Below, in pieces: positions 24,210 to 27,394 of a stretch of DNA of 39,503 nucleotides; the stretch's first letter is position 1, and each line of letters starts with the position of its first letter. The stretch is from Candidatus Methylomirabilota bacterium (GTDB lineage: Bacteria; Methylomirabilota; Methylomirabilia; Rokubacteriales; DASRDR01), in contig DASYQW010000100.1 of assembly GCA_036005065.1 (NCBI GenBank), positions 1-39,503 of the forward strand, in the 5' to 3' direction. The notes below the pieces were generated by a model. The model worked only from the letters and a program-made list of their open reading frames with translations. It had not been told where the DNA came from and made no database searches. The translations under genes and the position numbers were made by a program.

Positions 24210-24764
24210 TCAGGCTCCCACGATCACGTCGACGACCTTCTGGAGATGGCTGAGGTCGATGGGTTTGTTGATCATCGTGAACGGCCCGATCTCGAGCGCC
24301 TTCGACATGAGCTCCGAGTCGGGGTAGCCGGTCACGATGACGACGGGCAACTCGGGGCGAAGGGCGTGGAGCTGCCGGAACGTCTCGACGCCGCTGATCC
24401 CCGGCATGATGAGGTCGAGGAGGGCCACGTCGAGGTCGGTCTGCTTGGCGATCTCGAGCGCCTCCTCGCCGCTGGCCGCCGTGAGCACGTGGCGCTGGGC
24501 GGTCTGGAGGGCCGAAGCGATGAACTGCCGGGTCACGTCCTCGTCGTCCACGACCAGGATGGTCACCCGAAGGTTCGCCGCATGCTGGCGGAACCAGTCA
24601 TCCAGGATGGACTTGTGGAATCGCCACTGCCGTCCCACCTTGTGGCCCGGGAGCTCGCGGCGCTCCGCCAACCGGTACACGGTGGAGACGGGTAGCTTCA
24701 AATAGGCGGCAACGTCGCGGATCGTCAGGATCTCGGCCGTCGCTTGGCCCCGGCGCTCAGCCAT
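24210..24764 (-). CDS. Excisionase-type HTH / receiver-domain fusion regulator
   Basis: The 184-residue protein joins an N-terminal MerR/excisionase-like DNA-binding domain (about 12-60: LTIRDVAAYLKLPVSTVYRLAERRELPGHKVGRQWRFHKSILDDW) to a CheY-type receiver (about 66-184). The receiver is complete: Asp73-Asp74, phospho-acceptor Asp117 (LLDLIMPG), Thr145 (VTGYP) and Lys167 (NKPID). The order is the reverse of most response regulators, which have the receiver first. No histidine kinase lies nearby. AAGGA about 10 bp upstream supports the ATG at 24764 over longer forms. It lies 133 bp upstream of citrate synthase on the same strand, so it may control that string. Confidence 0.85.
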   Translation of the reverse strand: MAERRGQATAEILTIRDVAAYLKLPVSTVYRLAERRELPGHKVGRQWRFHKSILDDWFRQHAANLRVTILVVDDEDVTRQFIASALQTAQRHVLTAASGEEALEIAKQTDLDVALLDLIMPGISGVETFRQLHALRPELPVVIVTGYPDSELMSKALEIGPFTMINKPIDLSHLQKVVDVIVGA

Positions 24765-25279
24765 CGCTTGTCCTTCCGCTTGATTGACGACGCTGGGCCG
24801 GCGATGCGCCTTGGCGTCCCTCAACGTTGTTGGCGTTAATTCGGCGTAGGGCGACATAGTTTCATCCGCCCGCGAGGCTGTCAAGGGAAAAGCAACGCGT
24901 TCACTGATCGATCCTCGGGTGTCGCTCGTGCTCGGTTGCGGCTTCTGAAATCTGGGCGCCATGCCGTGTCTCCCCCACCGTGAGGCCTGCGTTGGTTCCT
25001 CGGTGACCACCCTTCCGGGTGTCCAGGTGGGCAGTGCAACGAGAGTACCAATCAGGGGCCCATGCTGAACCTCCTGTCACATAAGCGATTCCCGGCTTCC
25101 CTCGACGCTCGGGCGGGTCCCGATGGTCGATTCTTAGTCATTTCTGCCTCCGACTTGAATCTGTTTTAACCAGTTAGGCGATGGCCCGAAGCGATTCCCG
25201 CGAAGTGCAAGACGTTTCTCTTGCCCGAGGCTGGCTTGACACGCAATCCATCGGTGCGGTACGGTGAGGGGTGCCCGCG
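24765..25279. other. 515-bp intergenic region between divergent genes
   Basis: This gap separates the minus-strand HTH-receiver gene and the plus-strand tusA-like gene. I see no convincing protein or tRNA in it. It is less GC-rich than its surroundings (for example around 25120-25180). It contains the palindrome CAACGTTG at 24822-24829 and a TTGACA box at 25236-25241. It is presumably a two-way regulatory region. Confidence 0.5.
25236..25265 (+). promoter_or_regulatory. Candidate promoter of the tusA-like operon
   Basis: TTGACA (25236-25241) is a perfect -35 box, followed after 18 bp by TACGGT (25260-25265), a weak -10 box. Transcription would start around 25272, almost at the start codon, giving a near-leaderless mRNA. 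The -10 may therefore be misassigned. Confidence 0.35.
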
Positions 25280-25522
25280 ATGCAGACCGAGATCCAGGCC
25301 GACCGCGTGCTCGACTGTCTCGGCCTGTTCTGCCCCATGCCGATCGTCAAGACGCGTGAGGCGATCAAGACGATGACGGCCGGCCAGGTTCTGGAGATGC
25401 TCTCCGACGACCCCGCCAGCGACGCCGACATGAAGAGTTGGGCCAGGCGGACCGGGAACGAGCTCGTTGCGGTCACGAAGGACGGCCCGATCTACCGCTT
25501 CTTGGTCCGAAAGACCGGATAG
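25280..25522 (+). CDS. TusA-family sulfur carrier protein
   Basis: The 80-residue protein has the family signature CPMPIVKTR near residue 20, where the Cys of CPxP carries a persulfide. The rest follows the TusA fold (VLEMLSDDPASDADMKSWARRTGN). TusA proteins receive sulfur from a cysteine desulfurase and pass it to acceptors such as tRNA thiolation or molybdenum-cofactor enzymes. The ATG at 25280 has GGTGAGGGG about 9 bp upstream; a GTG at 25271 would add three residues. It directly precedes a desulfurase homologue, a natural partner, although that partner lacks the PLP lysine. Confidence 0.9.
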   Translation: MQTEIQADRVLDCLGLFCPMPIVKTREAIKTMTAGQVLEMLSDDPASDADMKSWARRTGNELVAVTKDGPIYRFLVRKTG

Positions 25523-26690
25523 GCTCGGCCCCCCGGGATCCGGGCGCCGGATCTACCTGGATTACGGGGGCTTTGCCCCCGTCGACCCGCGCGTGCTGGC
25601 CGTCATGACGCCCTTTCTCGAAGGGTGGGTGGGCAATCCCTCGGCTATTCACACGCTGGGCCAGGAAGCTCGTGACTCGCTCGCCGCCGCCCGGGCCAAG
25701 GTCGGTCGGCTCGTGGGCGGCCGCGCGGAGGGCGTCGTCTTCACCAGCGGCGCCACCGAGGCCAACAACGTCGCGATCAAGGGAGTGGCCCTTCGGCGGG
25801 CGGGCCGCCACGTCGTCACCACGGCCATCGAGCACCCGTCGGTCCTGACGCCGTGCCGCGACCTCATGAAGCATGGCTTCGAGGTGACCTTCCTGCCCGT
25901 CGATCCGGCAGGCCGGGTGGCTCCGGACCAGGTTCGAGCGGCGCTGCGCGCCGATACCTGTCTGGTCTCCATCGGAGCCGCCAACGCCGAGATCGGCGTG
26001 ATCCAGCCCTGGGCAGCGATCGCCGCCATCGCGCAGGCGGCCGGCGTCCCCTTCCATGTGGACGGGGTGGGAGCGGTGGGCCGCGTGCCGCTGGCCGTCG
26101 AAGCCGATGGCATCGATCTGTTGACGCTGGCCGCCAACGATCTCTACGGCCCCCCCGGCGTCGGCGCGCTCTGGGTCCGTCCCGGCCTCCGCCTCATCCC
26201 GCAGATCCTGGGCGGGGGGCAGGAAGGCGGCCTGCGATCGGGCACGGAGAATCTCGCGGGTGTGGTCGGACTGGGCGTGGCGGCGGAGGTGGCCCTTCGC
26301 GATGGACCGGCCGAGACGGCCCGGCTGGTGGAGCTGCGAGACCGGCTGACCGAGGGGCTCCTGGCCTCGTGCGGAACGGTGCGGCTGACCGGGCCGCGCG
26401 TGGGCCGCTTACCGCACCATGCGAGCGTCGTCGTCCCCGGGGTGAAGGGCGAGAGCCTCCTCCTGGCGCTCGATCTCGTCGGCATCTCGGCGGCCACGGG
26501 CTCGGCCTGTGTCGCCCTCACGGGGGAACCCTCGCACGTCTTGCGGGCGCTCGGCCTCGATTCGCCCGTGGCCGAAGGGTCGCTCTGCGTCACGTTGGGG
26601 CGCTGGACGCGAGCGGAGGACATCCACGTCTTCCTGGCGGAGCTTCCCCCGATCGTCGACCGCCTGCGCGCGATCTCTCCACTCGGCTGA
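25467..26690 (+). CDS. Cysteine desulfurase (NifS/IscS) homologue lacking the PLP lysine
   Basis: The fold-defining segments of NifS/IscS are present: IYLDYGGFAPVDP, TSGATEANN, EHPSVL (His123), FHVD (Asp199), RSGTEN, and GSACVAL with the persulfide Cys348. The cofactor site is altered. Where IscS has S-x-H-K-I-Y-G-P, this protein reads AANDLYGP, so the Schiff-base Lys is Asp225 (codon 26139-26141), His is Asn and Ser is Ala. The second Asn of the NNEIG motif is Ala174. It probably cannot do normal PLP desulfuration. No ATG or GTG occurs in frame between the tusA-like stop and the conserved IYLDY. The only candidate start is TTG at 25467, overlapping tusA by 56 bp, so a frameshift fusion is possible. 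N-terminal residues before about 27 are doubtful. Confidence 0.85.
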   Translation: MRSRRTARSTASWSERPDRLGPPGSGRRIYLDYGGFAPVDPRVLAVMTPFLEGWVGNPSAIHTLGQEARDSLAAARAKVGRLVGGRAEGVVFTSGATEANNVAIKGVALRRAGRHVVTTAIEHPSVLTPCRDLMKHGFEVTFLPVDPAGRVAPDQVRAALRADTCLVSIGAANAEIGVIQPWAAIAAIAQAAGVPFHVDGVGAVGRVPLAVEADGIDLLTLAANDLYGPPGVGALWVRPGLRLIPQILGGGQEGGLRSGTENLAGVVGLGVAAEVALRDGPAETARLVELRDRLTEGLLASCGTVRLTGPRVGRLPHHASVVVPGVKGESLLLALDLVGISAATGSACVALTGEPSHVLRALGLDSPVAEGSLCVTLGRWTRAEDIHVFLAELPPIVDRLRAISPLG

Positions 26691-26698
26691 GTGTCCCG

Positions 26699-27394
26699 GT
26701 GAAGCTCGTCTGCTTCGACATCGACGGGACGCTCTTGTCGGCCAGCGGCGCCGGCCGCCGGGCCCTCGGCCAGGCGCTCCTGGACGTATATGGCACGGCC
26801 GGTCCGATCGATACCTACGATTTCCATGGCGGGACCGATCCGCAGATCATCCGGGACCTTCTCGGCGCGGCCGGGCTCTCGCCGGCGGAGATCGCCGCCC
26901 GCGAGGCCGACCTCTTCGCCCACTACCTCGGACACCTCGCGGGGGAAATCGGGGATGGCCGGCAGGTCACCCTCTACCCCGGGGTGGCGGCGCTCGTCGA
27001 GGCGCTGGCCGGGCGCGGGGACTGCCTGGTGGGGCTGCTCACGGGCAACATTGAGGCGGGCGCCCGAATCAAGCTCGAGCCGACCGGACTCCTCCCGCGG
27101 TTCCGGGTCGGCGCCTATGGCTCGGACCACGCCGACCGCACGTGCCTCCCGGCTGTGGCGGCGGGACGGGCCGCCGCGCTGGTGGGCCGGGCATTCCTGG
27201 GCCCGGACCTGGTGATCATCGGCGACACGCCGCGAGACGTCGGATGTGGCCGCGCCTTCGGAGCCCGGTGTATCGCGGTCGCCACCGGCCGTCACGCCGT
27301 AGCGGAGCTGACCGCCTGCGCGCCCGATCACGTCTTCGCGAACCTGGCCGAGACGGATCGGGTGATGGGCGCGATCCTGGACAGCCGCCCATGA
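26699..27394 (+). CDS. HAD-superfamily hydrolase (phosphoglycolate-phosphatase-like)
   Basis: The 231-residue protein begins with HAD motif I, LVCFDIDGTLL (nucleophile and acid-base Asp). LLTGN supplies motif II (Thr), and VIIGDTPRDVGCGRA motif IV (GD-x3-D). The motif III lysine is not obvious: the usual region reads GSDHADRTCLPAV. A cap domain lies between motifs I and II. Members remove phosphate from small metabolites; the substrate is unknown. The start is GTG at 26699, 8 bp after the preceding stop. Confidence 0.85.
   Translation: MKLVCFDIDGTLLSASGAGRRALGQALLDVYGTAGPIDTYDFHGGTDPQIIRDLLGAAGLSPAEIAAREADLFAHYLGHLAGEIGDGRQVTLYPGVAALVEALAGRGDCLVGLLTGNIEAGARIKLEPTGLLPRFRVGAYGSDHADRTCLPAVAAGRAAALVGRAFLGPDLVIIGDTPRDVGCGRAFGARCIAVATGRHAVAELTACAPDHVFANLAETDRVMGAILDSRP

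Follow-up and report, generated by a model that had tools for sequence, protein, structure and literature searches.

What can a protein with the fold of a cysteine desulfurase do once the lysine that binds its cofactor, pyridoxal phosphate (PLP), has been replaced? This question is raised by an IscS/NifS-like gene (positions 25467–26690, plus strand, as are all features below unless stated) in the window, by which we mean the whole 39,503-nucleotide stretch of DNA analysed here, from a Candidatus Methylomirabilota bacterium of the order Rokubacteriales. The gene is an uninterrupted open reading frame that encodes aspartate in place of the PLP lysine, and it follows a tusA-like sulfur-carrier gene. 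We favour, with a probability of roughly 50%, the reading that its product, synthesized along with TusA, is a pseudo-desulfurase of the IscS fold that exchanges sulfane sulfur through Cys321 and does not draw it from cysteine.

The protein has an aminotransferase class V fold (Pfam PF00266, E = 2.1e-62), and its AlphaFold (AF2) model, with a pLDDT of 92.8, matches IscS structures at TM scores of 0.94–0.96. It missed the NCBIfam equivalog cut-offs for NifS (404.7 of 530.75 bits) and IscS (325.8 of 643.2), as well as the cut-off of PRK14012 (338.8 of 548). Residues are numbered from the start of the conserved region, codon 25548–25550 being residue 1 (the numbers of the original prediction are higher by 27), and equivalences come from an alignment to Escherichia coli IscS.

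As originally predicted, the PLP lysine is gone: Lys206 of E. coli IscS corresponds to Asp198 (codon 26139–26141), and His205–Lys206 has become Asn197–Asp198 (26136–26141). Alignment to homologues, which had been proposed as a check for other lysine-less members, covered 52 distinct Rokubacteriales orthologues and 17 archaeal proteins, Archaeoglobus fulgidus IscS included. Asn197 and Asp198 were invariant in these 69 Asp-type (D-type) proteins, whereas all 73 other homologues (K-type) carried lysine, which argues against chance or sequencing error as the source of the change. Two further losses that had been pointed out are also real. The second asparagine of the NNEIG motif, Asn155, is Ala147 (25986–25988) and in most relatives glycine; asparagine occupied this position in 70 of 73 K-type, 3 of 52 Rokubacteriales and 1 of 17 archaeal D-type proteins. 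The glutamine of the DATQS-type segment, Gln183, is Gly175 (26070–26072) and was present in 73/73 K-type but in 0/52 and 0/17 D-type proteins. In addition, Ser203 is replaced by Ala195. One change had been overlooked in the original prediction, whose residues and coordinates are otherwise correct: Arg354 of the substrate pocket is replaced by Cys347 (26586–26588). Arginine was found here in all 73 K-type proteins, cysteine in 51 of the 52 from Rokubacteriales, and leucine, methionine, valine, serine or alanine in the 17 archaeal D-type proteins. The lysine, Gln183 and Arg354 were all present in every K-type protein, and none of the three occurred in any D-type protein.

Other parts of the active site are intact. 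The PLP-stacking histidine, the aspartate and the persulfide cysteine that were said to be retained (His123, Asp199 and Cys348 in the earlier numbering) are His96 (25833–25835; E. coli His104), Asp172 (26061–26063; Asp180) and Cys321 (26508–26510; Cys328), the last in an SGSAC loop. Together with the equivalent of Glu77, they were invariant among the K-type, Rokubacteriales and archaeal D-type proteins. Thr76 and Thr243 are kept as Thr70 and Thr233. The Asp-type proteins alone share Arg83 (window numbering), Asn197 and Asp198.

In E. coli IscS, the K206A and Q183E mutations abolish desulfurase activity, K206A retains some PLP, and R354K is tolerated (PMC9978102). As the window protein lacks both the lysine and the glutamine, it is unlikely to be a working cysteine desulfurase, and on our analysis the loss of this activity appears well supported. 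It could still be active if another lysine or free PLP acted as a substitute, and it does contain four lysines (residues 51, 78, 108 and 300), of which Lys51, Lys108 and Lys300 are conserved in Rokubacteriales. Judged by the alignment, however, none of the four sits at the Schiff-base site, so the nearby compensating lysine that had been considered earlier is probably absent. Conservation of Lys108 and Lys300 does not extend to the archaeal relatives, and Lys51 lies on helix 36–56, in a region that faces TusA in E. coli. The predicted model matches the structure of an A. fulgidus IscS mutant with a restored lysine (D199K; 4r5f) at a TM score of about 0.95 and gives no indication of a local rearrangement. 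As Gln183 and Arg354 are lost too, we regard continued desulfurase activity as very improbable. Ordinary desulfurase activity can be supplied by other genes in this genome, because it encodes two further IscS copies (at C248) that have the lysine and are each accompanied by an IscU.

A further possibility is that the gene is a decaying pseudogene or an assembly error, for which nothing speaks except its unusual active site and the fact that no ordinary start codon lies near the conserved N terminus. Orthologues at 58–70% identity were found in 54 of 59 Rokubacteriales relatives, and close homologues occur in Candidatus Rokubacteria/Rokuibacteriota. A DNA search for the pattern N-D-x-[YC]-G-P detected it in 52 of 60 genomes of the order, almost always as a single copy, and in 0 of 35 genomes of the same class that belong to families in other orders. 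The pattern N-D-x-Y-G-P was absent from the sampled 151 genomes of the Chloroflexi phylum and 101 of the Actinomycetota phylum; in the sampled archaeal phylum to which a Bathyarchaeota record (L053) belongs, the pattern was present in 17 of 349 genomes. The substitution is therefore order-wide and is not confined to one assembly. Pairwise dN/dS values were 0.11–0.17 in Rokubacteriales and 0.07–0.13 between archaeal pairs, indicating purifying selection. With the same residues in 52 orthologues and a fixed gene pair, these values refute decay, to which we assign a negligible probability, and bear out the earlier view that this is a maintained protein. One locus (G006:C295, 15800–16056) contained two nearby Asn-Asp patterns, and the orthologue there matched over residues 1–268 only; an assembly fault or a tandem fragment may account for this double pattern.

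To place the D-type proteins, we used a tree built with the trait columns masked. The Rokubacteriales proteins formed one clade (support 100/100), and the archaeal Asp-type proteins, A. fulgidus IscS among them, formed another (97/89). A single Lys/Asp change suffices on this tree: a joint archaeal and Rokubacteriales branch had a support of 76/74, and in 78% of bootstrap trees the two groups lay on the same side. It is likely, though short of proof, that the Asp-type proteins arose once and were then transferred between archaea and bacteria.

The nearest solved structures, by sequence and by fold, are those of A. fulgidus IscS (4eb5, 4eb7 and 4hvk) and its D199K mutant, with 45–46% identity and TM scores of 0.94–0.96 to the window protein. 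According to papers that cite the primary work, A. fulgidus IscS has aspartate (Asp199) for the lysine, is without desulfurase activity and provides a cysteine ligand to a [2Fe-2S] cluster on IscU (PMC7585200, PMC9769115). It shares with the window protein the Asn-Asp pair in place of His-Lys, the loss of Gln183 and Arg354, and the retention of Arg83 and Cys321. It differs in keeping Asn155, in having leucine at position 347 and in having glutamate at an IscU-contact position, where the window protein has alanine, cysteine and lysine, respectively. Methanosarcina acetivorans IscS1 (MA0808) is also without the catalytic lysine (PMC7585200) and by its published description resembles the window protein in this respect; unlike the window gene, its gene lies in a cluster that also contains iscU1 and four genes of unknown function. 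Lysine-less IscS proteins as a class are thus not new, since these two members have been published, although 16 further distinct archaeal Asp-type members are added here to A. fulgidus IscS. What is new is the TusA-partnered bacterial variant of the A. fulgidus type: in the literature searched, in which the A. fulgidus IscS papers are represented through papers citing them, we found no description of a TusA-linked bacterial clade.

The A. fulgidus protein also informs the possibility that the window protein is an enzyme of altered chemistry, which would use PLP or PMP without a Schiff base, with Asp198 and Asn197 acting catalytically on another substrate. The uniformity of Asn-Asp indicates selected residues rather than drift, the ring-stacking histidine, the N1-binding aspartate and the phosphate-side threonines are kept, and the 4EB5 complex of A. 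fulgidus IscS (Asp199) is described as containing PLP (PMC9769115). By its title, moreover, the A. fulgidus structure entry was first presented as an unusual L-cysteine desulfurase. The title of a later paper, as cited in PMC7585200, instead reports no desulfurase activity; the pocket arginine and asparagine are lost as well, and no single new residue has become fixed at positions 147 and 175 of the D-type proteins. We consider altered chemistry improbable. The original prediction had offered, as one of two readings, a desulfurase that works by other than normal PLP chemistry. A role as relay or scaffold now appears more likely, given the A. fulgidus precedent, the closeness of the A. fulgidus structures and the additional loss of Arg354.

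The neighbouring gene encodes a candidate partner. The tusA-like gene (25271–25522) encodes 83 amino acids with a TusA domain (Pfam PF01206, E = 1.2e-24; 86.3 bits, cut-off 28.6) and the motif DC-x-GL-x-CPMP (DCLGLFCPMP), which includes the CPxP cysteine. It missed the NCBIfam TusA equivalog cut-off (60.3 of 78) and keeps the equivalent of Arg27 of E. coli TusA, read against PMC2854127. One further TusA domain is encoded elsewhere in the genome. The suggestion that TusA is the partner is strengthened by comparison of loci: tusA lies directly upstream of the IscS-like gene in 52 of 52 distinct Rokubacteriales loci and adjoins the gene in 14 of 17 archaeal D-type loci (all but L053, L055 and L186), but adjoins none of the 73 lysine-containing homologues, in a comparison that lies outside the A. 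fulgidus and Methanosarcina loci and in which the 73 and 52 loci are not independent trials, because they are phylogenetically clustered. TAG serves as the tusA stop codon (25520–25522 in the window) in 49 of the 53 distinct Rokubacteriales loci.

The two genes are also interlocked. In the window, their reading frames overlap by 56 nt (25467–25522) in different frames. The TTG at 25467 is the sole ATG, GTG or TTG in the IscS-like frame after a stop located 89 bases before the tusA stop, and the start of the gene is uncertain because this TTG is its only candidate. Between the tusA stop and the start of the conserved region lie 7, 22, 25, 28, 31 or 34 nt, a length of 3n + 1 in 42 of 44 Rokubacteriales loci, which keeps the linker in the IscS-like reading frame. 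Most relatives have an ATG, made out of a tusA codon, 38 nt ahead of the tusA stop; the aspartate codon that yields this ATG is GAT in 17 of 18 cases, as against about 25% GAT elsewhere. These patterns are most simply read as a start codon that overlaps tusA, with the translation of the two genes coupled, and overlapping, frame-locked genes would imply coupled synthesis of the two proteins. The constant +1 frame (42 of 44 loci) also raised the idea of a TusA–IscS fusion made by programmed frameshifting. We set this aside as less likely, because most loci have either the biased-codon ATG at −38 or a start directly following the tusA stop codon, and because the frames are arranged otherwise in two loci. 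A scan for promoters and terminators found none.

By contrast with tusA, iscU separates the two D-type groups. The archaeal Asp-type loci are mostly arranged tusA–iscS(Asp)–iscU, with iscU next in 17 of 17 and tusA before in 14 of 17. No IscU match was found beside the Rokubacteriales D-type genes in loci L191–L208, and iscU adjoined 15 of 73 lysine-containing homologues. The loss of iscU in Rokubacteriales is matched by a charge reversal on the IscU-contact helix, as defined for E. coli IscS in PMC2854127: Glu309 of E. coli IscS is Lys300 (26445–26447), a lysine found in 52 of 52 Rokubacteriales proteins, whereas this position is glutamate in 17 of 17 archaeal D-type proteins and mostly glutamate or aspartate in K-type proteins. 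Seven archaeal genomes (G378, G161, G256, G168, G387, G268 and G403; loci L236–L242) encode a second odd IscS paralogue, each adjoined by its own iscU, in which the lysine is kept and His104 is changed to proline (IEP), Gln183 to aspartate (HTDASD), His205 to tyrosine and Arg354 to methionine.

These observations bear on the chief rival to a relay, in which the protein is a non-catalytic scaffold or regulator that docks TusA or, through Cys321, a metal–sulfur cluster, or that forms mixed dimers with active IscS, without transferring sulfur. Pseudoenzymes often turn into regulators. In the accounts of citing papers, A. fulgidus IscS ligates a cluster on IscU and has no desulfurase activity (PMC7585200, PMC9769115). 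However, the A. fulgidus mode, in which IscS works with IscU, is not simply transferable to Rokubacteriales, because the iscU neighbour is missing and the charge on the IscU-contact helix is reversed. Thiol chemistry is also suggested by the strictly conserved Cys321 and the newly acquired Cys347. We regard a scaffold or regulator as on the unlikely side, although it is the most serious of the alternatives.

A sulfur relay can be pictured from the E. coli IscS–TusA complex (PDB 3lvj), which involves the same two protein families. The window protein and canonical class I cysteine desulfurases (IscS/NifS) such as E. coli IscS have about 40% identity, the fold, the cysteine of the persulfide loop and the equivalents of His104, Asp180 and Thr76 in common, but Lys206, Gln183, His205, Asn155 and Arg354 are all replaced. 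In E. coli, TusA receives a persulfide that IscS has made from cysteine, whereas the IscS-like partner in the window should not make a persulfide. The cysteines of the two E. coli proteins are placed for transfer, about 4 Å apart (PMC2854127), a geometry that could serve transfer in either direction. The ability to desulfurate cysteine would have gone with the Schiff-base lysine, with two PLP contacts (Gln183 and His205) and with Asn155 and Arg354 of the substrate pocket. The protein retains its fold, some of the cofactor pocket and, on a mobile loop, the persulfide cysteine; PLP may be held non-covalently for structure, as in A. fulgidus IscS. TusA, loaded elsewhere, would exchange sulfane sulfur with Cys321, which would hand the sulfur on. 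Cys347 should face the old substrate pocket, as Arg354 does in IscS, and may pair with Cys321. We infer the relay, its direction and the role of Cys347 from these arrangements. The pseudoenzyme half of the earlier proposal of a sulfur-relay pseudoenzyme is probable, given the loss of the lysine, Gln183 and Arg354, and sulfur relay would be its most likely role. Several points weigh against a relay. We found no direct precedent for sulfur flow from TusA to an IscS-like protein, and the A. fulgidus literature, as represented in citing papers, favours a cluster-ligand role over sulfur transfer. The residues of E. coli IscS that contact TusA (Trp45, Glu49, Arg220 and Arg237) are not conserved in the Rokubacteriales clade, although they vary among K-type proteins too, and in the window protein Asp52 is alanine as well.

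The co-encoded IscU would come next in archaea, as acceptor or cluster partner, and a chain from TusA through IscS(Asp) to IscU would amount to cluster assembly without a need for cysteine. In Rokubacteriales, where IscU has gone from the operon, the acceptor would be something other than an adjacent IscU. Tentatively, we suggest that it is possible to join the two: a cysteine-independent route may lead sulfane sulfur from TusA via lysine-less IscS to IscU in archaea, from which Rokubacteriales may have lost IscU while acquiring a Cys321/Cys347 relay that serves a different acceptor. Such a route would touch on the open question of how archaea and some bacteria supply sulfur for Fe–S clusters and thio-cofactors without cysteine. 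A review notes that many archaea have no cysteine desulfurase and that their first source of sulfur is unknown; its statement that cysteine is reportedly not the sulfur donor for Fe–S clusters in methanogens fits the proposed chain (PMC5372739). A. fulgidus IscS was until now an isolated oddity; the constant tusA neighbour names a candidate sulfur donor or partner, and the Rokubacteriales branch represents a module kept without an adjacent IscU. A practical warning is that genome annotation will score these lysine-less genes as active desulfurases.

Two further genes flank the pair. A HAD-family hydrolase gene (26699–27394; Pfam PF00702/PF13242) starts 8 nt past the stop of the IscS-like gene and has relatives in about 22 of 26 compared Rokubacteriales loci; from its position it may well be a third member of the operon, without an obvious role in sulfur metabolism. 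Upstream of tusA lies a divergent gene (24210–25010, minus strand) encoding an excisionase-type helix-turn-helix and a response-regulator domain, and a gene of this kind is found upstream of tusA in several relatives too.
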